A stretch of 64,000 nt of DNA from assembly GCA_936450465.1 (NCBI GenBank), contig OW388296.1, positions 52,364,931 through 52,428,930 of the forward strand, given 5' to 3'. Numbering within the stretch: the stretch's first letter is position 1; every line of letters begins with the position of its first letter. The notes beneath the pieces are model-generated. The model did no database searches. It worked only from the letters and a program-made list of their open reading frames with translations, and was not told where the DNA came from. The translations under genes and the position numbers were made by a program. Positions 4,678 through 64,000 of the stretch are shown in pieces. This stretch comes from Gibbula magus. Lineage: Eukaryota; Mollusca; Gastropoda; Trochida; Trochidae.

Positions 4678-5417
4678 AATATTAAAAGGACTTCACACGC
4701 GTTAACATTTCGAACGCCTGTAATAACGGAGAGAGCTTCGTGTACAAATACATGCTTCATTTCATTACATTAAAATCTACCGAACAAACACTTTATAAAT
4801 ATTCACAGGTATCAAAGGCAATTTGAGTCACATATTCATTTACCGAGCGTCAATCTTCACTTCCATAATGTGACTTGTGTAAAGAGGATTTTAGAATTAG
4901 CAGCTTAATATTTCGTTTAGCTCTCCGTACGATCTATGTCATGCGAGTGGCCATTTGCAACCGAGCCGAGGGGAAGCAACTCTCGTGCCTTCGTGACTCT
5001 CCCACATGATTACACGGTTTCAAGCGACGGGACGCACGAGTTCGAATTTGCCGTCCTTAAGCCCAACTCACACTACGTACGATTATAGTACGATAACATT
5101 ACGATTCGATCGTACTGGTATCGTACTTACGTTTTTATGATCTACTATATCAATACGGTTTATGTGCGAGAAATGCACGAGGTGTGTACAATCAATGTAC
5201 GAAAGAAACACGATTTTAACACGATCAGAACACAATCAATACGAACTTAACACGACACTCTCACGACGCTCACGCGATGCCATCACGATTGGTTTACGAA
5301 TAATGCACGATTTTTAAAAGAATTTTTACCAATCAAACTTCTTCCCTCCAAAACTGTTTCAACTCCCTTCCATTGAATGAAAGGCGCACTAGTTTAGTTG
5401 CGCATCAGGTTTTGAAG

Positions 5418-7248
5418 ATGACAACTAGAAGAAGATTGGAACTTCAACTGAAGCTAATTGATGTGGAATTAGATATTATAGAGTTGAATGAGGAAACAAA
5501 CAAGAGGAAAAGAGTGTTGCAGCTGGAGGGACCGCCAAAGAAGAGAAGGGCGAGAACCGTTTGGACACGAGGCTGGCTGTTGCAGAGACCCTTGTATGGG
5601 CAGTACGAGATTCTGCTCGCGGAGTTGAATAACGAGGACCGGGTCAGCTACAAGACCTTCCTGAGGGTAGACAATGCTGTCTTCCAGGAGTTAGTCACTC
5701 GAGTCGGTCCTCGAATCAAGAAGAGAGACACTTTTTTCAGGAAGGCACTCGACCCAGGCTTGAAGATTGCGGTAACGCTACGTTATCTTGCTACGGAGAA
5801 CAGCTACTTGGACCTGCAATACTTCTTCAGAATCGCCAGCAACACCATTGGACGCTTCATACCCGAAGTCTGCGAGGCGATTATAGAAGAATATTCATCA
5901 GAAGTCATGTCGCCATGCGTAAGTCAAGAACAGTGGAAAGCTATAGCTGACGGCTTTCTGGACATGTGGAATATGCCACACGCATGTGGAGTTCAAGGTG
6001 GAAAACATGTGCGGATCAAGTGCCCGAGGAAGTCAGGATCGCTATTTTACAACTACAAGCACTATTTCTCAAAAGTATTATTTGCTTTGGTAGACCATGA
6101 ATACAAGTTTATATACATAGAAGTCGGGGCCAATGGTGCCTGCTCGGATGGCCAGCTCTTCAAGCATTCTGAACTCAGACAATTGTTGAAGGATGAAGAC
6201 CTGGGTCTCCCCGAGCCAGTTAAACTTCCCGGGAGCCAGGAAGAAATGCCGTATTTCATCATCGGTGACGATGCCTTCCCATTGCTAACATGGCTGATGA
6301 AACCATACTGCAGGCGTCAGATGACTGGGCAAGAACGAGTCTTCAACTATCGACTGTCACGGGCAAGGCGGATCGTGGAAAACGCTTTGGCATTTTGTAT
6401 TGCAAGTTTCAGTGCCTGCTCGGTACGCTGTGCCAAGTGAAGACGGAGAACATGGACTCCATCATTCTGTGCTGCGTGATGCTCCATAACCTCCTTCGCA
6501 GTCGCTATCCTGGCAATCCTCAAGGTAAATGTGTAAACACGTAATATATATATATATATACTCAAATAAATGATAAAAACCTTTATTACCCATATGGTGG
6601 AAAATAACCGAGTTGATATTATTGATATGAGCACATGTGCACATATCACGTTTGCCTAGCAACCATTGTTTCACCGCGACCTCCCGTATTTTGTCGTCAG
6701 TGACTTTATAAAACGATTGTTCGAGACGTCACTGTAGCTTGCCGTCGCAAGGGAAGTGGGCCGTTTTCTGGCTATTTTTACGCGAATCAGACGGAATAAA
6801 ATGGGTAATAAAGAAATTATTACACTCGAAAGTGTGCCATATGACTTTAACGAAACTCTTGCAAATTTGTGTATAACCCTCGCTCTCACTCGGGCAATAC
6901 AAAAATTCACACTCGTTTCGTAAAAGTCATATGACACACTTCCTAATAATAATCCCTATATATATGCAAATGATTGTAAAATCTATCTATCTAAGTATGT
7001 TCCGAATTTGTTAATGTATTTTTATTCTCATAATATCTTTGTATTGTATTGTTCATATTGTTCTGTTCAGCTGCAGACCAAGAAGACGGATAGCTCAACG
7101 TCGTCGCTGGAGACTGGAGGCAGTGTCGCCAGCTGGACGACACTAGCAACAACAGGAGTCAAGCCGGGACCAACGTCCGAGATACCCTTGCAACGTACTT
7201 TCAAACTAGAGCTGGGTCTGTACCATGGCAGCTGCAAGCCCTGAGCTA
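5418..7248 (+). pseudogene. Harbinger transposase (DDE_Tnp_4), two exons, broken
   Basis: Exon 1 starts at the ATG at 5418; the frame is open upstream only from a TTG at 5373. It encodes a basic N-terminus, then the Harbinger nuclease. Visible motifs are CGVQGGKHVRIKCP, NGACSDGQLFKHS and RARRIVENA. Three lesions are visible. The first catalytic Asp (DGKH in the family) is Gly. A 1-bp loss after VENA at about 6388 shifts the frame, and the true continuation FGILYCKFQCLLGT...LHNLLRSRYP lies one frame over. After a GTAAAT donor at about 6526 and the acceptor near 7070, exon 2 continues (LNVVAGDWRQ..., RDTLATYFQTRAGSVPWQ) but carries an in-frame TAG at 7091-7093. The intron contains a MITE. Family assignment is strong; the exact splice sites are inferred. 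Confidence 0.85.
6583..6953. mobile_element. Palindrome-containing MITE, copy 2 (inverted)
   Basis: Reverse-complement relative of the element at 1969-2308, sharing TTATTACCC, the segment GAGCACATGTGCACATATCACG and the internal hairpin. It lies in the predicted intron of the Harbinger transposase. It also keeps about 60 bp that copy 1 lacks or has altered. Confidence 0.7.
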
Positions 7249-31930: not shown

Positions 31931-32352
31931 GATCTTAAGCCCCTGTCACACTTCTGCGTATCATCATTTCTTCTGAGTTGCGTTTTGATACTTCTTTCAT
32001 ACGCGGCCGTACGCAATATACGCCGCTCATTGGCATCCTATACGTTTAGGTGAAATGTTGTGTAGAGACTCTTTGGTCAAAGGTGATTCTTAATTGTAGG
32101 ATTGGTGACCCTGTGACTCCAAATGTGGGTCACAGGGGTCATGATCTAAAAACTTTTTTTGTTTGTTAACAATGTATTACTTGCGATAACTTAGAGATTC
32201 AACCATAGATAATAAATAAATGAAATCCTGATGAGCTACAGAGCCCATGCCTCTATTTTTTTTATTATTACATTCATGTGTTTGTCAAATGTTTCTGTTC
32301 CTTTTTCCTATTCTTTTATAGATAAGATAATAAGAATGATCCTTTCTTTCAG

Positions 32353-33612
32353 ATTGTCTCTGACCAACCTAAAGATAAGAGGGATGAATGCACAACTTGC
32401 ACAGAGGGGCATCCAGACAACAAGTGTGTTTCAGGAAATATTCACCTTGCCCAACCAAGCGATTTTACTTCCGAAAACATGTCCCTGATTTTCAATGACT
32501 ACTGTGCCAATGTAGATCAAGCACCTTTTAAAACCCTGAATAAGTGTGAGCAGGCTGACGTATCTGTCTGCACTATCAGTACACAAACAGAGGAACATGA
32601 AGAAGTTAAATTTGCTACAACAGCTACCCAAACTGAAATTGCTGACAGTCCAGTCCCTACCAAGTCTTTTCGAGATATTGGTATTCAGGTGGAGAGACCA
32701 GATATCACATACGAAGATGTAATTCAAAGTGATGAAAAGTGTATGTTTTACACAGGGATTCCAAAAGTTAAGATATTTGATTTACTGTTTGATGAGATGG
32801 ATGATGCCGCGGAACACACAAATCGCAAAGGGAATGGAATCAATACTGGACGACCAAGGAGTCTTCGGCTGGTAGATGAGTTTGTTCTAGTCATGATGCG
32901 ATTGAGACTCGGACTACTTCTTGAGGACTTGTCATATCACTTCAAGATTTCAGTGTCCACCTGCAGTTCAATAACAAACCATTGGATATGTTACCTCTCA
33001 CATAAACTGACTTTTTTAATACATTGGCCGTCAAAGTCTGCCATAATTGACTCAATGCCGCAGAAATTCAAAAGAGTACACCCAGACTGTCGGGTAGTAA
33101 TTGACTGCACTGAAGTTTTTACAGAGACCCCACAATCTAACATAAATAAATCTCTTCTATATTCACATTACAAATCTCACATGACTTATAAGGCACTAAT
33201 AGGCATAAGTCCTGCAGGAGTTGTTACTTTTACTTCAGACTTGTGGACAGGGTCAATAAGTGACAAACAGTTGACAGAGAAATGTCATATTCTAGATTTG
33301 TGTGAACCAGGTGATGCCATAATGGCTGACAAAGGATTCCTCATCACTGACTTAACAGCACCAAGATGTATTAAGCTTATAATACCCCCATTAAAAAGGA
33401 ACAGACAATTAGACAGGAGACAAGTGGAAGTTACAAGAAGAATTGCTAACTTAAGGATTGATGTGGAACGAGCAATTTCTAGAGTTAAAAAATTCAGAAT
33501 TCTTCAGGGGGTGATGCCAATAACAATTGCTCACCTTGCAACTCATGTGTGGAAAATATGTGTTTCTTTGACAAATCTTCAACCACCACTTACATTTGAT
33601 GAAGATGATTAA
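32353..33612 (+). CDS. ISL2EU/Harbinger-like transposase with HTH and DDE nuclease, intact exon
   Basis: The exon begins after the acceptor CTTTCTTTCAG; an internal ATG is at 32479. Counted from that ATG (377 residues), an HTH_Tnp_4-type helix-turn-helix spans about 130-170 (LVDEFVLVMMRLRLGLLLED). The DDE nuclease follows, with VVIDCTEVFTE (D209), WTGSISDKQLTE (D262), MADKGFLI, and RIDVERAISRVK (E330). All three catalytic acids are present and the frame is open to the stop. The preceding 42 codons contain C-x2-C (CTTC), perhaps the end of a THAP-like domain whose first exon has been lost. The 5' truncation makes full activity unlikely. Confidence 0.85.
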   Translation: MVSDQPKDKRDECTTCTEGHPDNKCVSGNIHLAQPSDFTSENMSLIFNDYCANVDQAPFKTLNKCEQADVSVCTISTQTEEHEEVKFATTATQTEIADSPVPTKSFRDIGIQVERPDITYEDVIQSDEKCMFYTGIPKVKIFDLLFDEMDDAAEHTNRKGNGINTGRPRSLRLVDEFVLVMMRLRLGLLLEDLSYHFKISVSTCSSITNHWICYLSHKLTFLIHWPSKSAIIDSMPQKFKRVHPDCRVVIDCTEVFTETPQSNINKSLLYSHYKSHMTYKALIGISPAGVVTFTSDLWTGSISDKQLTEKCHILDLCEPGDAIMADKGFLITDLTAPRCIKLIIPPLKRNRQLDRRQVEVTRRIANLRIDVERAISRVKKFRILQGVMPITIAHLATHVWKICVSLTNLQPPLTFDEDD

Positions 33613-35120: not shown

Positions 35121-36282
35121 TCAAAAGAGCTTTTTCCCACGTTTTACTCTATGAGAGAAGAGCTCTGGAAGTAATGCATTAACATAAAACTTATTAAGTT
35201 TCAGGAGCATCTCTTGCCAAAACTGGTTGTCATAGTAGATCCTCTCAACAGAATATCCTTTGAGTGTCCAAATAAAGAAATCACACCATTTCCGCTGAGA
35301 AATTGCCAGCTGTCCTTGTACCTGGTAGTAGTATGGGTGTTTGCGTTTCAGTTTTAGTTCTCCATTAACAATGTGACAGCAGAAGGTCTTGTCAGCAGCT
35401 GCTTCCAAAGGTGTCACACAACGCTTGGAATAGGGACACTTGATTTCCAACACACCTTCGGAATCTGAACAGTGAGCACAATCAAGTAGAGCGTCTGGAC
35501 TGCTTCCCAAATGAGGGTACAAGGGGTGGACAATCAATCCACAAAGAGAATACCTTAGTGGAGTGTGTGTTTTCCGTGCATATTGCAAGTATGTTCGCCT
35601 TGCAGCTGACTCGTGTGTTCTGCCCCACCTCAATGCACTACTGTCAAATGTCTTGTAGCTAAGAACGTGAGAAATATTTGCCTGAGGTGGTGTTTGCTCC
35701 TTCATGGTACAAATCCTGCCAAAGTTTGATGATGTTACTCGCCCCTCTCTCGCATCGTACCAACTTTGGTTATTTGTCTGTCCTTTGGTTACTACCTGGA
35801 TATCTTTACAGTCCTCATCTGTCATCACCAGATTTTCGAAATAAATTTCAAAATCTTCCTTGCACTTCATAGAATTCAAGTCAACACTATCATGATAGTC
35901 AAAGTCAATATTATGTAATTTCGGCAGAATAGAGACTGGGGCTGCTTTCAGTTTGGCAAACTTGTCCTGAGAAAGTAAGAAGCCAGCACTTGGTGAAATA
36001 TCATGCAATTTATCACAAAAGTTGGGAACATTTACAGGGTTAATGTTCTTCAAATCAGAAATTCTGGATAATGCAGGAGTTGTTTTTTTCTGTGAAGTCT
36101 CACTTATCCTAATTTTCTTGAAAGCCAAGTGTTGAGACTTTTGAGGGGAGAGCTTTCTTTTCCTAGGCTCCATCCACTTGCACTTCTTTGAGGTGGAGGC
36201 ATTCAGTCCTTTCTCTCTCTTCTCAGTCATGTCTACCAGGGCGTAGAGCAGAGCAGCAACATGGTTGCAAGATTCTCCTTCC
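35121..36282 (-). CDS. YqaJ-type nuclease, exon 3 (SWIM end plus nuclease)
   Basis: The exon starts after acceptor TTTTTTTCAG at 36283. It opens with EGESCNHVAALLYALVD, the C-x-H half of a SWIM zinc finger. The YqaJ/lambda-exonuclease-like domain follows: SWYDAREGRVTSSNFGRI, LRWGRTHESAARR, HLGSSPDALLD and GVLEIKCPYS (the PD-(D/E)xK-type E, D and ExK), then YYYQVQGQLAISQRKWCDFF. No stops or shifts are seen. Such nucleases accompany transposases in ISL2EU elements; processing of DNA ends is inferred. Reading upstream to 36332 runs into the intron. Confidence 0.88.
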
Positions 36283-36573
36283 CTGAAAAAAATGAATTGA
36301 TTTTTATAATACCGGTACCCAGTATCAGACATAATATCAATAATTATTGATCATGATGACATATTACATAAGACGACTAATTACATGTATACTGAATCAG
36401 AATTAAGTTTATTAGCTTGTTTTTTTAACACAAAAAGAAAATAACGCTGAGACAAAATATTTTAAAATACCATACAAGTGAAGAAACAAACTGTTATTGA
36501 AAAAAATTGTATTATTTATAAATGACATATTGCATACATACTTTATATTCAGTTGTGAACAAATAAAACCTAC

Positions 36574-36977
36574 CCTGCTGCACATGTACATCCAGCCGCA
36601 TGCACATTGCCAGATATCTTCGAAAGTAACACCCATACAGTATAATCTGGTCTTTTGTTATTCTGGGCAGATGGTATTGATGGTATAACCTTGGACTTGA
36701 CATAGCAGTGGGAACAGTCATCAATTATCTTGTGATATTGTATACCATGAACATGGCCCTCTTCATAAAATACTTTAGCTTTAAGTTGTCTCTTTGCTTT
36801 CGTGGATTTGCTGTCAAAAGTTCTGTTCTTGTTTAGTACGAGGTAGTTATACAAATCCGTGAACCGTACGGCTGGAATGTCCTCTTCATTGATTGTCCAT
36901 TCAGGGCCAGGTACTGTCCATGGTTCTGGAATTACTTCTCCAAGCGGGGTTGTAAATCTAGATGCCTTCCTTGAATC
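36574..36977 (-). CDS. YqaJ-type nuclease gene, exon 2
   Basis: Acceptor CAATTTGTCCAG precedes 36977, and donor GG|GTAGGT follows 36574. The 404 bases read DSRKASRFTTPLGEVIPEPW, then GHVHGIQYHKIIDDCSHCYV and DYTVWVLLSKISGNVHAAGCTCAAG. The last is the C-x-C half of the SWIM finger that exon 3 completes (CTCAAG|EGESCNH). Phases fit on both sides. The segment between is not assigned to a domain. Confidence 0.82.
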
Positions 36978-37968
36978 CTGGACAAATTGTAAATTTTACT
37001 CATTAACATGTACTTATTCAGTGACAAAATGGTCAGTTGGCTTAAAAAGTTATACATAATATTCCTTTTTTATTTTTAAATTCATGATTAATACTAATCT
37101 AAGAATAACCCAATCTACAACAGTATTAAAAATACTATTTTTGAAAAACTACATATACTTCAAATCTTCAACTTTATGTCTCCAGACAATAATTCTTTTC
37201 GTTTCTATTTCTATCAACTTTAAAGTCATTAACATCCTTCAGAAAGGCTAGAAAGCAGTGCCCTCAAGTCACCTGTTTTCATGACTCACCTATTTACTTG
37301 GTATTTACATTAGATATCATTTCTCCTTGACCACTCAAAAGTGCCTGTCAGATATTTTGTCAATCAGTTGTTTCGAACAGACCCAATCCGGAAGTGATTA
37401 CTATTCATGATCAATCGTATTTGAAACTAAAGTTGAGGTTACATTAGTCAATGTATTAGCTGCTAATATGTTTTCTGTTTCGAGTAAATATGAATAATCT
37501 AATTTTCCGATGTAATTTACACTATCAGTCCGTGCTTGGAAATCAGTGAACATATTACAATTTATTGTGGCTTATGCTGCGTTGTAAATTTAAACTTAAA
37601 ACAAATACCACGAAAACAGGTGACCCATGATAACATGTAACTCAAGGATAAATTATCATCCGTAACTGACATAATATTGTGAACCAAAATCAACAACAGA
37701 CTAAAACGAAGTTTTTTCCTGTTATAAAATGTTTGAAATACATGTCGTCTATCGTTCTCAGTCTATGTTTGACACCATTAGAGTTCAATGTCATAGACGT
37801 CATTACCAGGAAAACTGGTAACAAGAGGGCATTTTACTGATATAAAATTATTTATTGTCAATTTTAAATTAGCCTACGAGTCTGAATCTCCTCATCTCTA
37901 TAACTGATTTTTCACAACAAAGTTGCGTTTATGACATAATCGTCTGTATCTAGATATTAAACAAGTAC

Positions 37969-39230: not shown

Positions 39231-39545
39231 AAACTCAAAACGAATGTCAACACATTATACGCATTTTAACCGTGTTCCTTGCAATCGCACAGTGCATTGT
39301 CCTTATGTGGAACGTATGACAAGCATATGCATCACGAACTCAAAACGAATGTCAACACCTTATACGCATTTTAACCGTGTTCCTTGCAATCGCACAGTGC
39401 ATTGTCCTTATGTGGAACGTATGACAAGCATATGCATCACGAACTCAAAACGAATGTCAACACCTTATACGCATTTTAACCGTGTTCCTTGCAATCGCAC
39501 AGTGCATTGTCCTTATGTGGAACGTATGACAAGCATATGCATCAC
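39231..39545 (+). repeat. 105-bp unit repeated three times
   Basis: Three tandem copies, each starting (g/a)aactcaaaacg and ending catatgcatcac, with about 2 differences between copies. Copy B has one unit (about 48481-48585). The period is divisible by three, so one frame stays open across all copies; there is no other sign of coding. Confidence 0.95.
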
Positions 39546-40164
39546 GCACACATATCGTACATGACAGACAACAGATCAAAACAGACGAAATGTCATCGGT
39601 GCTGTTATTCAATTTCAAATTTGAGTCCAGATTTGATGTTCCTATATTAACCATTCATTTGTGTGTCATTATATATCCGTGCACTCAATAATATATTCTT
39701 TTAAAACAGATGTATACTGGCCAAAAAGGGTTTTAATGTCAACATGGACACACTTGTTAGATTTCAGGAGGTATACAAGGTATTTAAAAAATAACTTAAT
39801 TCAATTGCCAAAGTGAAAAAATTAGCCATCGGCTCTATAGCTAGGTCATCAGGCTTTGAAGGATTTATATCAGGCCTTGTATGTGAAATAATAGGTTCAT
39901 AACATAAATGTAATGACTTATCACAAAACATTAAATTCCACTGCTTTTACGCTCTTTAAAAGAAGAAGTAAAATAATTTCATGGAGTGATATCTATAACT
40001 CACACTCAGTATCACTAAATTTGCTCTCAATTCATGTTAGAATGCCTTTTATAAGTGATTTATGAAAACAACATCTGCAAATATGCCTGATTTAGGAATA
40101 AAATAATGTTTGCCCTATCCTATCCGAACTGCATCAACATTCTCAAATGGCGAATTGGGTACAT

Positions 40165-51677: not shown

Positions 51678-54044
51678 TTTTTATATTTTTTTTTATGTTT
51701 TTATTCCCAAGAAATCACATTACATATGTATACAAGCATATAAGACAATGTTTACACTTGTTTGTATATAAGAATATGAAGATAAAACAAAAACCTGTTG
51801 ATTTGCATGATGTCATCTCAAATTAAGAAGAGTGTTGACATTCTATGTACACAATGATATGGCCTATTCATTGTAAACAGTAGTTTCTTGCACATGAAAT
51901 AAAGGGATTGAAATAGAAGAAACATTGGAAGATCATTATGAATAAGGTTATATTAATAGAGTGTGGAGTGATGACCAAAACGCAAAGAATTTTGTTTGTT
52001 CATTGTTTGAGTAAGCAATGTATTTACATAATTTATAGTATCTTCTTATTTCATTTTTAATATGATTAAAATTTGGCTTTGAATCTTTTCTGCTCATATT
52101 GTAAATGTTTTTTTTCACAATCAGGCAGATTACATTTAATGGATTGTTATTTTTCCCTTTAAAGCCCAAAAGTATATTTTCAAGATTTAATTCAATATGT
52201 CCTTCACTCAAGGTTCCAAGCCATAATGCCAAATCTCTCCACACTCCATATACAATGTTACATTCAAATAATAAATGCTGTACAGATTCTTGCGTCTGTT
52301 TACAGAATGTACATAGTGGTGAATCAATCAAACCAATCTTGTACAAAAACTTATTGGTTGTTAAAATGTTTTGAGTTACCTTGTATTGAAAATATTTCAA
52401 ATTCACACTTTGTGTGCATCTATTGGGCATTAAATTAATATTTTCCCATTCGGTCTGTGTAAGTTCTCGTCCCAATCTTTCTTCCCATTTCAGCTGACCT
52501 GATGTTCTAGCAAATGCAAAATTACATAGAATTTGATAATAATATTTACTTTTCTTACCCATGCTCATCACACCTATGTTAAAAGGGAGAATAGGATATA
52601 GTTGTCTATTTTCCAGCATCTTGACTGTTATACTTTTTTTCTTCAAGTAGTCAGCTACTGCTTTTTTTATACTAAGATATTCAAGGAAGTTGATATTAAT
52701 GTTAAACTTATCTTTCAGATGCCCTAGGGAAGCAAAATTTCCATCTTCTTTTAAAATATGACAAAGAAATACAATTCCCTTTCTTCCCATTTCTTAAAGT
52801 AAACTGGCTTCCTATCTATCAACATATTATTATTGCACCATAGTGCCTGGCATAGAATATATTTTCCTTCAGTAATGTTTTTATAGTGAATATTTAGGTA
52901 TTCTGACCATATCTTTAGTGTCTCTCTCCAAAATCTATTATTAAGTTTTGGTAAAATATTTTTTAAGATATAATATCCGTCAGCCATCCATATCCTTGGC
53001 ATATTTGCTATGGTCTCCATTACATTATTTTCCCAAAGTGTGTCATCATAGCATAGTCTTCGAACCCATAGTACCTTTTGGGCTTTAATAGTATTTTTAA
53101 TATTTGGAACATTAATCCCTCCAAATTTTGTAGTGGATGATATGGTTGCCCTTTTTACCTTATCTGTTTTACCTTTTTTTTACCAAATAAAGTTAAAACA
53201 TTTCTTCTGCAACCGGTCAATTATCTCATCTGGTGGGCTTGGAATAGAGGAGAAAAGATGATTTAATTTTGGCAAAAGTAGTGATTTCAATACAACATTT
53301 CTTCCCATTGGTGTGAGGGATCTCAATGACCAAATTTGCATCTCCTTATCTATTTTACCTAGTTTTTCTGTGTAATTAAGTTCTACCATTTCGTCTAAAT
53401 CAACATCGAAAGTAAAGCCCAAAAGTTTGAAATTTGATTGTGACCAATCAAGATTATAATCTTTACATATTTGTGTCTAGATCTCTTTTTTGATCCAATC
53501 CAAATCAACCTAGTTTTGTCTGTATTTACCTTTAGGCCGGAAAATCTAGCAAAGAAATTTAAAGTATTAAGTACTCCATACAAACTTCTTTCTGTTCCAT
53601 CTAGTAACACTGTTGTGTCATCTGCAAATTGTGCTAGGAGGCTTTCAATATTTCCAATTTTGATACCTTTGATATTCTTATTATTCTTTATCAGGAGGGC
53701 TAGTATTTCAGCGCATAGAATAAATATATATGGTGAGACAGGATCTCCTTGTCGGCAGCCTCTAGAAATTTTGAAGAAGGAACTCCCAAATCCATTTACC
53801 AAAACACTAGACTCTATATCATTGAATAAAGTTGTAATCCATTTTTGTATGCTATGTCCAAAATTAAAGACATTTAAGATAAATTTTCTGTCGACCGAGT
53901 CAAAAGCTTTTTCAAAATCTATCATAAGTAATAATCCCGGGATCTGATAGTCTTCTGTATGGTCCATAACATCGTAGATTAATCTCGTTACCTCACCTAT
54001 ATATCTGCCTGGAACAAAACCTTTTTGATCTTCATTTATATTTT
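51678..54044 (-). mobile_element. L1/Tx1-type LINE inserted in copy B, 5'-truncated
   Basis: The 13-bp target duplication GAGTTTGAGCATT occurs at 51665-51677 and 54045-54057, with the empty site in copy A near 43350. The minus strand ends in an A/T-rich tail at the left. About 2.4 kb of ORF2 is present and the endonuclease is missing. Confidence 0.9.
51948..54044 (-). pseudogene. L1/Tx1-type ORF2, RT and C-terminal domain
   Basis: RT blocks are LLLMIDFEKAFDSVDRKF, SRGCRQGDPVSPYIFILCAE and the active site LAQFADDTTVLLDG, then FSGLKVNTDKTRLIWIGSKK. Downstream are WEERLGRELTQTEWENINLM and the C-terminal knuckle LCTFCKQTQESVQHLLFEC. Breaks occur near 53400 and between 53180 and 52790, with several stops. 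The RQGDPVSP pattern and C-terminal knuckle point to the L1/Tx1 group. It encodes no endonuclease, so it cannot move by itself. Confidence 0.85.
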
Positions 54045-55733
54045 GAGTTTGAGCATTTCATCTGATGTACCAGCTTGCTCAAACAAATTATCCATTGTAT
54101 CAATTTTTGGATTTTATTTGATTACGGCCGATTATCAAAGTATTCAGTGCATGCTTCACCCAAGCAGTAGTGATCTAAATTATTATAAATTTGACAGACC
54201 TATCCCAAAAGATAATCTTGTATTCTTTCGGCCTGAATCACAAAACTACATAACGTAACACATGTGTGTTATAAATGATGAGTTATAGTAAGAACTAGGA
54301 TAAGCTTTAAAAAACTTTTATTGACAAAGTATGTTATGTCATCTTGATGATTGACCTATCTTACAGTCTGTTTACTGCTCCACCACTGCTTCTTAACTTG
54401 CAGATTGGATGCCAATTAAGTTCAATCACTGGTAGATTTTAGAAACATGTCTAAGTGTTTATCATGGTACTGCCTTTCAATTATCTTAATATTAATTTTA
54501 CCTTGATGGTTTTATACCTGTGACACTTGAAAACGATCGTCGTTTTCGATATAAACAGTACGAGTTATACAACCAATTACCGATCCTAATATACCATCAT
54601 ACCTGCACAAACGCTGTGTCCCGCTTGAATGAATTACGTAATGGTTTCATCAAAGGCGGCTGAGTTTCACATATATTACGCTGCACAGCCTTTCAGGGTC
54701 AGTGTGCGTGCTTACGCTCATAAACACAGAGAGAAAAGGAACTATCAATTTTAAGAATGTTATATTATTATTTATAGTTAAAACATTTTAATTGCTGGCT
54801 TTCTCATTTGAAAATAATTATTTGTTATCATTTTGATAAAATATGTACTTCGCTTTTCATAAGGCCATAGAACGTTTTCGATTTGGTGCTAAGACAACTT
54901 TTTAGTTCTTAATACTCCGATAACAAAGGCAATGATTATAGATTATAGAGTGAAGAAAGTAAAGATAAAGCTTTTAATGTCAAAACCTTTACACTTGATC
55001 TTTATTACAAATTTTTTATTCAAAGAGTTCTCTGTTTTAGCATGGCAAGTTGGTGTTGGAGGTATTTCATTGCAAAACGAAAACAAACAATAAAATTGAG
55101 TTGACCAGTAAAATACCAGGTGTCACTTTAAATATTCGAATACTATTAGGCACTCGGCAAATTGAAAAACTGGCTTCTAAAATTATTACAGACTCCGAAA
55201 TTTGTGTCATGATGTATATGTACTTTTACCTTCTAGATGCTGCATCCAATTTAAATGAGTTACATGTATAGGTTAAGATCTGTTTGTCTGTCTGCTTTAT
55301 ACACATCAGTTGTGAAATTAGCTATTTCCACGATATTTCATCTGGTTATTTTCACATGATTTATCATTTTTTACAGAAATGGTTTTACGATTGTACTTTA
55401 CAATTATGAGTTTATGAGTTTATCATTGGCCGATAGACTCTTTGCAACTATCACACAACTAACTCTTAAAAGTGTACACGTTTGAATATGAATGATTAAT
55501 GATAAAAATTCAACACTTGTTGTTTAAGTGTATTACATTTGATAACCTATACTTGTTTGTCCACCTGTTCGTTAATTATTTATTTTTTTTATGCGGAAGA
55601 GTTTCTGGCATAATGCAAATGAAATTTATGATTGTTATGTCGCAAGTTTAAGAAAAATATGAGTGATTATCATGATAATAATGTTACATTATATCCATCT
55701 GTATTTTATTTTGCAAGGACTCTTTTGTCAATC

Positions 55734-58264: not shown

Positions 58265-59223
58265 TAGTTAAGGGGATGAAGCGTTCGAACACCAGCCTGA
58301 CTGCTCTCAGCTCTAGCACGTTGATGTGCAGGCTGGCCTCCACCTGGGACCAAAGACCCGACGCCGAGTGGGGCCCTAAGACCCCTTCCCAGCCCGAGAG
58401 CGAAGTGTCTGTCTGGACTGTGCACGAGGGCACCGGCGTCACCAGAGAGATACCCCTCGAGAGGTTCTCTGTGCTGGTCCACCACAAAAGATACGGCGAG
58501 AGCCACCCTGGAGTCTAGAGCTGCTTCTCGTTACTCTCGGAATGAGACCACAGACCCGCTAGGGCCTGCTGAACCGGTCTCATCCGAAGTCAAGCTCTGT
58601 AAACCACGTCCACTGTTGCCGCCACCAACCCCAGCAACTGGAGCCATTTGCGAGCAGTGTGACGGTGGGACTCTAGGAACAAAAGCGTGGCTCTCTGAAC
58701 CTTCAGAACCCGGTCTGGAGCGAGAGAAACTCTCGCCAGATCCGTCTTGAACCTAGTACCTAGGAAAATCTCATCCTGTGAGGTCTACAGGGTCGACTTC
58801 TTCAGGTTGATTATCCAGCCCAGGGATACCAGTAGACTGATAATCTCCATGGTGGCCGCCTGGTTCAGAGCCTGAGACAGAGCCCTGACCAACCAATCGT
58901 CCAGGTACGGGAAGCAAAACCGACCTCGTGCCCTGGCAACCTGAGCGGGAATGGGCATCAGCTTCGTGAACACCCTCGGCGACGTGGAGATGCGAAGGGT
59001 AGAACCTTGAACTGGTAACATGTCCCGTCGAAAGCAAACCTAAGATATTTCTTGAACTCTTGGTGCATCAGGACATGCAGGTACGCGTCTTTGAGGTCTA
59101 TCGAGGAAAGCCACTCACTTGCCTCTACCGACGCTATGACCGACCTCAATGTCTCCATCATGAACGATGGAACCTCTATCTTTCTGTTGAGATACTTGAG
59201 GTTGAGTATCGGTCTGAATCCCC
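58265..59223 (-). pseudogene. DIRS-type RT and RNase H, downstream of the Chapaev insertion
   Basis: The minus strand gives GGFRPILNLKYLNRKIEVPS, WLSSIDLKDAYLHVLM (first catalytic Asp), KYLRFAFDGTCYQFKVLPF, then after a shift STSPRVFTKL and FPYLDDWLVRAL with an intact YLDD box. RNase H follows (TDTSLSGWEGVLGPHSASG, HINVLELRAVRLVFERF). It ends abruptly at about 58265. The N-terminal part lies at 63552-64000 beyond the inserted transposon. Confidence 0.85.
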
Positions 59224-59931
59224 CACGGCTGTTACTAGAGAGATACTTAGCTGAGGTATCAGTTACAAGCTGGCCGCTTTGAGAAGGCGCCCTCTGATAG
59301 CAGAGTTGGAGTGGCTGTATGCATGCCAGTGCTTGAGTGAGAGAACACATGCATGCTATATATAGCTTGCATTGATATCCCTATGTGTGTACATTTAAGA
59401 TTATTGTATCAACTAATTGACAACAGATTTAAGATGTGTTTGTGTAATTAAGAAGACAAAATATTGATAATAACCTTTGACATTTTACAGTTCTTTCATG
59501 ACATTCCACAAATACTTGCGGACAGAAGACTACTCAATTTCGCTAATTTACAATTGATTATATCATACTAACAAATTTTTGCAGACCATTTTTGGAAATA
59601 CCATAGCATTAATCTATCTGTTATCTTTGAGATTCAAAAATCATTTTCAGTGGTTCAAACTTCGCAATCATAAGAATAAGTGATAATATGACCTACCATT
59701 CCGCTGTGTTAAAGTCTTGAAAAGTAATCCATAACACATATATTTCCATGAGAAACACAGCAGTGACACATAATGTAACACATTCACATAGGGTACTCCA
59801 TGACTCCTTGTTGCTACACTAAACAAGGGCAAGCAGTTGAATTTATCCCAGTTATTTCACAAAATTAAAGGTACACATCACAAAATTATTTTTCTCTTTT
59901 CACTGCACATAATGTTACATATAATCCAATG

Positions 59932-62900
59932 TTAATACTCCTTTCTTCTTTTTTTCAATGGGATGGAAGCTTGAACAACAGGGGAGACTTGCAAATGGTG
60001 TTCTTTCATAATGGTCAAATATTTTGACTCCTCCGATTTCATCCCCCAGACTCGTCTCTTCAGGTGATTGAGAGTGGCATGGATCTGCTCTCCACCTTGC
60101 TCACCATGCAGTGCCATGCCAAACTTCCATCTGTCCATCCAGTCACACACATGATCTTCCAGCATGTGCATCTTTGGTGTGATTGACTGTTTGGGGAAGA
60201 CACGCCTGAAGAAACTCATGTACTGTTCAATGCTGCCTTTAATTTGCAAAATATCATCTTGTGAAACGACATCATCGTGTGCAACAATGTTGTGAACATC
60301 TGCGAATCTTCTGTTCAGTTCTTGAAAGGATTCTCTGATACGATATGCTTCTGTTATCAGGGACCTATCTGTTGTTAATTCTAAAGTGTCCTTTGTAACA
60401 CTCCTGCAGATATCTTCATATACAGTTGATCGAAGATATTTATTGCAGTGGTTTCCTACAAAAGAGCGTCCGTGATAGGCTTGTGGTATTATCTTATTTC
60501 TTTGAAGCATAGTATCAAGGTTGGATGTCACTGGTCCCGTTCGAAAGGGAAGTTTGTTTGATTCTTTTTGCTGTGTAATGCTTTCTAATAGTGCTGTAAT
60601 TTTTTCATTAAGTTTTGTTTCACTTCTCTGGAAATTTTTGAACCGAAACTGTATGTTCTATCCTGTCTAATTTTTCTAGCATTTTTCTCTTCTTGGTCTC
60701 AAGTTTTGCAACTTCCCTTAAATTTCCTATGTACTTCCCAAATATTGTATTTGGTAGTGGATCACTGGTTGCAGCAAGTTTCACAGCAATAAGAATATCA
60801 AGCTCATGGCAGTCATGTTCCAGCATGGTATGGTGCTTCTTCACAATGCCGAGAAGAATGTGTAGGTAAGGAGGACACACTCTGTGAAGAGATATTGGAA
60901 GAATAGGATTGTGGATCACGTTGTGAAAGTGCGAGGCTTTCTTTATATTTGACTTCCCTTTTTGGCAAAACTGTTTGTGGTCATCCTTCAGATCTTTGAC
61001 TGTCCTCCCGTCAACGTTGCGCCTCGCCTGTTCATCCTGCATTTGTTGTTTGGTGGTGTAACACCAGAGGCATGGGTATGTGCCTGCGGGGCCCGAAAGA
61101 CCATATATTTTAGTGAGAAATTCATAATCACCAAAGAGAAATGTTTTTATCTTCTTTTGTTGCCATTTAGTTTTGCCCAATTCATATATTTGCTTCACGT
61201 GTCTTTCAAGTCCTAAACTCAGATTCTTGAAACTGTCTTTTGCAGGAAACATGCTGAACACAATGGTGTTGTTTTTTGAGTTTGGATGAGGTAGATTTGC
61301 AACTTGCAATGTCATCTTGAAACTGCCTCCACCATGATCACCTCCAATTTTAAGCTATATTTCATCCGAAGGGATGTTATTGCCATGCCATGTTAGCATG
61401 TTTGATTTCTTATACTTATCAAGCATCTCAAGAACAAACAGTTTCAAGTCTTTTACGAAGACAATAGGTACAGCCTTCATGACTGGGCGCTGATTATCAC
61501 CCATCATTTCCATGTCGGTTCGGTGGCATTCAATGTGATTACCTATTGCATTAAGCTGAGCCTGTCGTTCCGAGGATTCGTTTTCAAATTTGATGCCCAT
61601 TGCTTTTAAGAAATGTTTCTGCTTACGATATTGTGACCATGACAGCCCAAGATACGATCTCATTGCTATTCCATATTTTCTGCCAATCGTCATTTTTCTG
61701 TGAATGCCAGCTGAACCACACACATGTTGCCTTTTTTTCACAGGTATATTTCGTATTTCCGCAATTTGTTGACTGACAACAGAATCCTGACTATGGCCAG
61801 CTATCATTGATCTTATAGCTGCCAATTCCTTTGAGCGTCTTCTTTTCAATGGAGAATTCGCATCTAATGATGTCTTTCGGGCTCGTCGTATTTTTCTCAG
61901 GACAATTGGCTGGCCTTTAGTTTTACACCTGACCACATTTTTGTCTTCTGTTGTCAACAACTTCCTCCGTACAAGATGTGTTTGAAGGGATTCCTCCATT
62001 GCTGATAGTGGTTCTGTAACAGATTTAGATAGGCATGATCCAACAGTTACAGTGTGTGGCATATCTGGAAATTGCATCGGTGACGTTTGCATTTCTTTAT
62101 ATTGTTTAGGAATTGGTGTGGCTGGATTGGTGTCGACATGCTCACACGTGTGATTTATCATTGTTGAAAGATGATCTGTTTTTGAGCAACATGTGCACTT
62201 GACTAACAAACACAGTAACTGTGACTTGAACTTCCAGTCAACTCTCTCAACCTCCTGAAGCTGCACTGATAATTTGCATGTTGGGCATGGTACAGTTTGA
62301 GATCGTTCATTCTGAAATACTTTGCTTAAACATCTGCTGCAAAAGTAATGTTCACAAGGATCACATTTAGTTTTAACAGATCTTGGTGAGAAAATGTCTT
62401 GACAGATTGAACACATGTAATTTGATTTCTGCATTTCTGTAAGTCCTGTAATTTCAAAGTCAACATTTGCTGGTAATGTTGGAAAACTATCATCAAACAG
62501 ATCCTGAAACATATCATCTGTATCCAATCTAGGAACTGTTGTTTGGCTTTCTGTTTTTCTTTTTAGTGGCCGACCCCTTTTACAATGATCAGACACACTT
62601 TGACAAATCCAACACAATTTCTCTTCTTTGCAATCACTAACACACCACTTTGTATCAAGGATATTAGCATCCCGAATTGCATTCTTATCTCCATTTGTAG
62701 CTTCCCTGCCTTCTTTCAATACTCTCCTATTATAGTTCAACATGCGTCTGTAACAATGATTACATATCTTTGAAGGATGACTGAAAATATTGTCATTCTT
62801 AATGTCTATTCCATATACATTCAATATATCTTCCACATAATTTTGACATGATTTTGTAAACTTCTGTGACACCAACTTTGCTCTACATCCACATATTCGT

Positions 62901-62947
62901 CATAGATATTGAAGGTTTTCTTGATGAGCAGAGTGAAAATTACTCAT
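59932..62947 (-). pseudogene. RAG1-N-terminal-like plus Chapaev transposase, nearly intact
   Basis: The natural ATG is at 62947. After 15 codons an in-frame TGA (62902-62900) replaces what should be the first Cys of RICGC; the frame then stays open to a TAG at 61357-61355 (context DEI*LKIGGDHGGG, probably a Trp codon). It stays open again to 60620, where a 1-bp shift leads into the last 199-plus codons ending at 59932. In all about 1004 codons. Residues below are counted from a TTG at 62875. The N-terminal half has HPSKICNHC (C38/C41), C88-x2-C91, a basic KRGRPLKRK, a C3HC4 RING (C155, C158, C174, H176, C179, C182, C197, C200) and C230...H242-x3-H246. This is the order seen in RAG1 outside its catalytic core. 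The C-terminal half is Chapaev-like: GGDHGGGSFK, FGDYEFL, GLSGPAGTYPCLWC, and ALHGEQGGEQIHATLN. Confidence 0.85.
62170..62413 (-). other. RING plus C2H2 zinc-finger domain within the fusion protein
   Basis: CSICQDIFSPRSVKTK, then CDPCEHYFCSRC and VPCPTC form a complete C3HC4 RING with all eight ligands. Twenty-six residues later VKCTCC...INHTCEH gives a C2H2-type finger. RAG1 has RING then C2H2 in the same order, and the RING has E3 ubiquitin ligase activity there. Activity here is inferred. Confidence 0.85.
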
Positions 62948-63483
62948 ATTTAAACTGTATCGCAATATCTTACATAAAGTGATGCTTCCATTGACAATAT
63001 TGTGAAGAACACATTAGAACTCACTGTATAAAACACATCCGACGTGTACCTTTAAACTGGCAGTATCATTAAAACGCGACTTGAACCACTGATGTTTCCA
63101 GGCAGAAATGATAATATAAACATGTGTGGGTAACATAATCTGGAATTTATCAACAAGGAAAAATTTCATCACTGGAGAACGTGGGTTTGAAATATCAACA
63201 ATTTGGGGGAAATGTGCTCTTTCACCCCTATGGCAAGAAAGGGCTGTCTGGGAAGCAATTAACTGATAAGCTGGGTTTTGTTATTGTTAGTGTCTGACCT
63301 AGGGTCGTAAGTGTCGAAGAGGCTAAGTGGTATAATGACAAGTTACAAGATGTAGCAGACAAGGGGAAACTTTTACACCTAATAGCTTCAGTTGCTAACA
63401 TGGCGGCCATTTTTAAACAGCTTCTGTAAACCTAGTAACGGGCTAGGCGCATGCGCGTCACGCTGAGTCAGCCAAGCTGTGAC

Positions 63484-63547
63484 TTATCTAGCTCGGCTCT
63501 CTGCTGAAGCTAAATAGCCACGGTTTAAGCAGAGTGAAACAGCCGTG
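63484..63547 (-). other. 5' terminal region of the Chapaev element
   Basis: The outer end reads CACGGCTGTTTCACTC. The DIRS reading frame runs on by chance through this sequence to a stop at 63484, giving a chimeric tail after KKDGG that is not part of the DIRS protein. Confidence 0.75.
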
Positions 63548-63551
63548 CCCC

Positions 63552-64000
63552 CGTCCTTCTTGGTAACTATGAAGTAGGTGGAATAATAACCACTCTGCTC
63601 CTGACCATCGACGAAGTCGACAGCCAAAAACGCCTCATGCCCATGATAGCGACCATCATTTGACTTGCGGCGCTGCAGATAGCGTCGCGCGCCAGATGAG
63701 TTCCTACTGCTGAGTGAAGGGAGGCAGTCGGCGCCCTTGCTTACCGATAAGGGAATGGGTCGCGGACCCAGCAAGGGAGGTGAGGGAGAGCACGTACTCG
63801 CGACCCCCGGGACATCGAACAATCCCTCCTCGCCGATCTGGTACCGTTTCAACAGGTCCGGGCAGTCCATATGTGCGGCCTTCGGGGTGGCAGTGATCAC
63901 CCGGCAGGCGAAATCCAGTTGAAACCGGGGCTGGGGGCGGGATAACCACCTGAGGCAGAGCCAAATCAATACGATCGCGCATCTGCCTCAGTGCGAAAGC
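63552..64000 (-). pseudogene. DIRS-type polyprotein, N-terminal side of RT, runs off window
   Basis: The minus strand gives a Pro/Gly-rich region with unclear frame, then SGYYSTYFIVTKKDGG, the fingers of a DIRS RT. The Chapaev insertion follows directly. Removing the insert with one target copy rejoins this in frame to FRPILNLKYLN at 59219. Confidence 0.8.

Follow-up and report, generated by a model that had tools for sequence, protein, structure and literature searches.

The window, a 64-kb stretch of DNA, harbors a broken 4.3-kb DNA transposon of the Chapaev type; its only recognised gene encodes a RAG1-like region and a RING finger ahead of a predicted DDE core (Table 1). We place the probability of this reading at about 90%. 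The element lies on the minus strand inside a retroelement reverse-transcriptase gene, both of its ends are present, and its gene is interrupted by two stop codons and a frameshift. This build was already described in 2015 (PMC4411706); the present copy is a new example and not a new kind of element.

The gene frame runs from a possible ATG at 62947 to a stop codon that ends at 59932 and comprises open stretches of 514, 244, and 241 aa. In the four frames of this 3,016-base interval that contain none of these stretches, the longest open runs are 55, 66, 75, and 87 aa, so the gene frame is far above chance and not accidental. Every motif quoted in a first-pass annotation of this DNA was found on the minus strand of this interval, in the order claimed. 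The near-complete gene that it described in one reading direction stands as a frame of about 1005 codons, but one that is interrupted by a TGA, a TAG, and a frameshift. A full protein cannot come from the present copy.

Table 1. Features of the transposon copy, its gene, and its target site (positions within the window; residues are those of the conceptual read-through)
Feature	Position	Strand	Basis
Whole transposon copy, 4,324 bp	59224..63547	-	CACGGCTGTT inverted at either limit, where the target frame breaks
Target-site duplication, CCCC on + strand (GGGG on - strand)	59220..59223		Frame restoration of reverse transcriptase
Target-site duplication, second copy	63548..63551	no strand
Terminal inverted repeat, downstream end	59224..59233	no strand	Exact 10-bp repeat CACGGCTGTT
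Terminal inverted repeat, upstream end	63538..63547	no strand	Exact 10-bp repeat CACGGCTGTT
Broken transposase gene, about 1005 codons	59932..62947	-	Frames, read-through, Pfam
Pre-RING region resembling RAG1, probably zinc-binding ("central non-core domain"; "Chapa"), with RGRPLKRK	62555..62926	-	Alignment, PDB, Pfam
TGA stop in frame, opposite C110 of mouse RAG1	62900..62902	-
HPSKICNHC	62779-62753	-
CWIC	62614-62603	-
RGRPLKRK, basic tail	62578-62555	-
C3HC4 RING finger	62276..62413	-	PF13639, PF00097
C2H2-type pattern behind the RING, VKC..CC...HTCEH	62138..62203	-	Alignment; zf-RAG1 not listed
DUF1280 (Chapaev transposase) match, residues 423-590	61178..61681	-	E 2.7e-17
In-frame stop TAG, within the DUF1280 match	61355..61357	-
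GGDHGGGSFK, with the probable first catalytic Asp (residue 537)	61316..61345	-	Assigned by eye
FGDYEFL...PCLWC, with the probable second catalytic Asp (607) and the C(2)C pair	61061..61135	-	Assigned by eye
FGDYEFL	61135-61115	-
PCLWC	61075-61061	-
Frameshift site, approximate, near 60649	60642..60657	-
HMLEDH, the H(4)H motif	60151..60168	-	Motif named in a passage of PMC4079192
HGEQGGEQIH, likely catalytic Glu (residue 950)	60079..60108	-	Assigned by eye

The part of the predicted protein that precedes the RING resembles RAG1. When its first 150 residues were searched against the PDB (177,635 distinct sequences), the top match was the RAG1 structure 21wb (E 0.0044). The 23 matching sequences at E up to 10 comprised 3 of RAG1, 19 of myosin, and 1 of TRIM21; the other two RAG1 rows, both full-length, stood at 5.7, the myosins at 0.048 and worse (the best of them 11-fold behind 21wb), and TRIM21 at 0.068. 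The 21wb match is composed of two collinear stretches with E-values of their own of 110 and 0.8, and it is therefore the summed score that counts. Among the 24,736 models of Pfam, RAG1_imp_bd was the sole one listed for the same residues at E up to 10 (0.0023). Its 18.0 bits lie below the curated cut-off of 23.3; mouse RAG1, the positive control, reached 295 bits in the same scan. The model was absent from the listings for the 514-aa frame and for the whole read-through; the match thus depends on the piece that was searched, which includes 15 residues ahead of the first stop.

Aligned directly with residues 101–379 of mouse RAG1, the pre-RING part of the head scored 69, a value reached by none of 1000 plain shuffles and none of 1000 shuffles in which Cys and His were held fixed. 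Passages of PMC3124419 list C110/113, C175/178, and C210/213 of the RAG1 central non-core domain as residues mutated as potential zinc ligands. Five of these six cysteines pair with C19, C62, C65, C112, and C115 of the element in the pre-RING alignment, and C110 falls on the TGA stop. An alignment of the whole head (residues 1–300) places mouse C210 and C213 on D87 and A90, such that the pairing with C112 and C115 belongs to the pre-RING alignment only. In that alignment, the blocks HQ..L..-RIC, ID.K.D...HP..C..C, and C.IC correspond to mouse RAG1 102–113, 160–178, and 210–213; the basic stretch RG.(P)LKRK behind C.IC was likened to RAG1 by eye. Judged from its sequence, the region before the RING likely binds zinc. 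The rank of RAG1 in both database searches, together with the shuffles, bears out the earlier claim of a RAG1-type region; its matches are not to generic RING proteins only.

The RING finger itself is complete but generic in database searches. PF00097 was above cut-off in three Pfam scans, including that of the whole read-through, and PF13639 was at or above cut-off in two and below it in the whole read-through scan. The nearest PDB matches of the RING were TRIM2, BRCA1, and RNF4, and RAG1 was absent from the best 60 of 88. Compared directly with mouse RAG1, it scored 111; none of 1000 plain shuffles attained this value, and 3 of 1000 did with Cys and His held fixed. Behind the RING, C251, C254, H266, and H270 align with C355, C360, H372, and H376 of mouse RAG1, where zinc finger A spans 355–376 (PMC3124419, in part). 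The C2H2 finger of the first-pass annotation accordingly stands by its alignment to these Cys and His residues, but the Pfam model zf-RAG1, which matches mouse RAG1 in the same scan, was not listed for it. With a generic RING and a RAG1-matching first part, the head is RAG1-like through that first part and the order of its modules more than through the RING. The RAG1 series of zinc modules that had been proposed is upheld for the order and the pre-RING region; the RING matches RINGs generally and, in a database search, not RAG1 specially. AlphaFold2 models of the 514-aa frame and of a piece with the RING and C2H2 pattern had pLDDT values of 34.2 and 44.2, too poor for structure comparison.

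The C-terminal half matches Chapaev-type transposases, as had been proposed. Scanned against Pfam with X in place of each break, the read-through matched PF06918 (DUF1280; 63.5 bits, cut-off 25) across the TAG stop, and the 244-aa open piece alone also matched this family (E 9e-10, 39 bits). DUF1280 is equated with putative Chapaev transposases in the cited part of PMC3985635. Passages of PMC4079192 give C(2)C, LH, and H(4)H as Chapaev motifs, and we located these by eye in this order as CLWC (626–629), LH (687 and 695), and HMLEDH (928–933). By eye, we assigned D537, D607, and E950 as the likely catalytic residues of the core. Further hallmarks of Chapaevs named in the same source, 3–4-bp target-site duplications and invariable 5'-CAC/GTG-3' ends, are also present in this copy, which combines them with the DUF1280 core and the motifs.

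Other searches with the read-through or its pieces returned no relatives. The 241-aa piece had no match in the PDB, and the 244-aa piece had a single one that we take as chance, as we do the Pfam match of the 241-aa piece to SF-assemblin (0.0031, or 0.03 in the read-through; under cut-off). NCBIfam matched 0 of 3 pieces. None of 4,759 candidates from a set of 5.8 billion proteins matched the 1005-residue read-through at E up to 0.001. Pattern scans of viral contigs gave 24 matches and 1 match, of which 0 were confirmed, and the pattern GDHGGGSFK had 0 matches there. The pattern HGEQGG.E occurs in three viral contigs (L001–L003), for which the best tblastn alignments to the read-through were short, none with an E below 0.31. 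In L001 and part of L002, the listed frames are G+C-rich and phage-like by eye, and we therefore regard these matches as chance.

The limits of the element are set by its place in the target gene. Its termini, CAC...GTG, which the first-pass annotation had not named, carry an exact 10-bp inverted repeat that was first noticed by eye, and the minus-strand flanks outside them are GGGGG and GGGG. In an empty-site reconstruction, the flanks joined minus one 4-bp copy give a target that reads KKDGGFRPILNLKYLN, and the 93-residue flank join matches Pfam RVT_1 (E 1.9e-9). The insertion target is a retroelement reverse-transcriptase gene, with parts at 58958–59219 and 63552–63987. Among overlaps of 0 to 5 tried at the junction, 1 and 4 keep the frame: an overlap of 4 bp yields KKDGGFRPIL (junction KKDGG/FRPIL), the ordinary reverse-transcriptase motif, and an overlap of 1 bp inserts an extra glycine. 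Because removal of 4 bp restores the target frame with KKDGGFRPIL, we favor a 4-bp duplication, GGGG, with its length picked via the target reading frame at one insertion within a G run. The ends are likewise derived from this one insertion.

Exact 10-bp inverted pairs are common by chance (37 in the region, compared with 10–30 in 20 shuffles), and it is therefore their place in the target gene, not their rarity, that marks the ends; a repeat finder did not include them among the longest 25 of 184 inverted pairs. A search for longer terminal repeats gave a best sub-terminal alignment that 53 of 500 shuffles equalled or exceeded, and we restrict the claim to the 10-bp ends accordingly. No second copy of the element was found in the window. 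The transposase gene leaves about 700 and 600 bases of the element, in which no open stretch lying wholly outside the gene exceeds 88 aa. Pfam scans of stretches of 62, 67, and 88 aa outside the gene revealed no second gene, and no RAG2-like kelch gene was found among these three short stretches; their best match was a weak one of the 88-aa stretch to the short repeat model LVIVD (E 0.0026, 17.5 bits, cut-off 20.2).

Two of the closest described systems are Chapaevs. Kapitonov and Koonin (2015; PMC4411706) recognize in a truncated RAG1 N-terminal part a "Chapa" domain, named after Chapaevs and also present in Chapaev3, and describe two Chapaev subgroups in which a RING "similar to RAG1" comes after Chapa. 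By this description, these Chapaevs share with our element a RAG1-type N-terminal domain, a RING, and a Chapaev core in a single protein. In the part of the literature found, PMC4411706 is alone in treating Chapaev, RING finger, transposase, and RAG1 together. Chapaev3, as characterized in passages of PMC4079192, has the same CAC/GTG ends and C(2)C, LH, and H(4)H motifs as the element but duplicates 3-bp TWA, where the element duplicates 4-bp GGGG; this rules out Chapaev3 as its subgroup. An Aplysia element, N-RAG-TP (Panchin and Moroz 2008), is said in parts of PMC8355894 and PMC2996935 to encode a RAG1 N-terminal-like protein and is, by that description, another likeness; the first-pass annotation proposed our element as a member of its lineage. 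RAG1 of jawed vertebrates (21wb, 6oem, 1rmd) has the same module order ahead of its core. It differs from the element in the core, which in the element is DUF1280 and not significantly alignable to that of RAG1, in the spacing of the Asp-Asp-Glu residues (69/342 by eye in the element and 107/253 in RAG1), in the absence of a visible RAG2 gene from the element, and in that the element's RING is not specially RAG1-like.

Such a head invites the question of whether the copy is instead a decayed RAG-like transposon (RAGL/ProtoRAG, TransibSU), that is, a RAG1L with a Transib-type core whose RAG2L partner was lost. Its head modules follow the RAG1 order, with a pre-RING region of RAG1 type (below cut-off in Pfam and modest in the PDB), its 1005 codons come near the 1040 residues of mouse RAG1, and the weak LVIVD match also counts on this side. 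The core, however, matches DUF1280 and hence Chapaev, and the Pfam RAG1 family PF12940 was not listed for the read-through at E up to 10. Although the human RAG1 core sequence readily finds amphioxus RAG1L (6b40; E 6.9e-72), the element's core shows no significant overall similarity to that of mouse RAG1 (residues 552–1007): 70 of 1000 shuffles attained its local score and 7 of 300 its global score. One block, around D708, scored 59 and was equalled by none of 1000 shuffles, but it had been chosen by eye and does not serve as a test. At 4 bp, the duplication is shorter than the 5 bp given for Transibs in the cited part of PMC4411706, and the small spaces outside the gene, with their short open stretches, also weigh against this reading, although a RAG2 gene may have been lost. 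We consider a RAG-like origin of the copy very improbable.

It is also very improbable that this is a Chapaev transposase with an unrelated, generic zinc-finger and RING N-terminus that merely resembles RAG1. The generic RING, the Pfam match under its cut-off, and the modest PDB match would all fit such a view, but RAG1 came first for the pre-RING part in two blind searches, the Cys/His-fixed shuffles never reached its score, and the literature already describes Chapaevs with a RAG1-type domain (PMC4411706, in part). That the locus is a domesticated host gene of transposon origin, and not a dead copy, is almost certainly wrong: a 514-aa open stretch survives, but the gene carries two stops and a frameshift, and both transposon ends and a target-site duplication lie within another mobile element. 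We retain the reading of a broken Chapaev-type transposon with a RAG1-like head.

From its family and by analogy, an intact relative would probably act as a cut-and-paste transposase. Its core would bind the CAC...GTG ends, excise the element, and reinsert it through a cut staggered by 4 bp, which would produce the GGGG duplication of this copy, and catalysis would take place at a DDE active site of the RNase H fold, as expected from the family. The N-terminal region and its basic tail would probably aid DNA binding and nuclear entry, as do, according to passages of PMC3124419, the central non-core domain and basic region of RAG1. The RING would probably ubiquitinate its own protein or a chromatin partner, again by analogy to the RAG1 non-core region; the same passages mention ubiquitin ligase activity of RAG1 from earlier work.

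The first-pass annotation had presented the element as the RAG1 N-terminal region travelling with a transposase other than Transib and as bearing on whether RAG1 arose by fusion. Such a combination is indeed seen here, but it is not new, being reported with Chapaev in PMC4411706; and the core is indeed DUF1280, but PMC4411706 places Chapaev and Transib in one superfamily, which leaves half a contrast. The cited part of PMC3985635 puts DUF1280 and RAG1 together in clade II of an RNase H-like tree. Given these groupings, the element alone provides no argument for late fusion. The passages of PMC4411706 use the same facts in the opposite sense: Chapa and RING in Chapaevs are taken to mean that the two formed one protein with the core before Chapaev, Transib, TransibSU, and the RAG1 ancestor diverged from their common stock, and hence that the combination is ancestral and not a late fusion. 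The fusion view is kept in the cited part of PMC8355894, with reference to N-RAG-TP. We think it likely that the resemblance of the head to RAG1 reflects shared ancestry, inherited from a common ancestor and not gained by fusion.

At somewhat less than even odds, we further speculate that the whole RAG1 head (zinc region, basic tail, RING, and C2H2) is an old, self-contained Chapaev–Transib module that RAG1 inherited together with its core, and that Chapaev copies such as this one keep in full without RAG2. If so, the head would have served transposons, in self-ubiquitination or the choice of targets, before V(D)J recombination and before the pairing of RAG1 with RAG2. According to the cited part of PMC11844651, the role of the RAG1 non-core regions is less clear than that of the core. 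Chapaevs that carry the whole head offer a way to ask what the module did before antibodies, and they bear on whether RAG1 originated by fusion or descent. The present copy is one more such example, well delimited because both of its ends and its target site are preserved; the general point has been published since 2015.

Other traces of mobile elements and repeats occur elsewhere in the window. On the plus strand, open frames of 378 aa (5304–6437) and 428 aa (32326–33609) match DDE_Tnp_4 (5.7e-21 and 6.3e-41) and are perhaps Harbinger-type genes. A 409-aa minus-strand open frame at 35124–36350 contains a YqaJ-type domain (2.7e-19), and the adjacent 36573–36995 has no Pfam match at 0.01. Reverse-transcriptase sequence is found on the minus strand at 53398–54057 (RVT_1, 8.4e-22), followed by a zf-RVT piece at 51951–52793 (1.1e-9). 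At 39232–39546, a 105-bp unit, a multiple of three, is repeated in three tandem copies that are 99% alike and lie in a plus-strand open frame.
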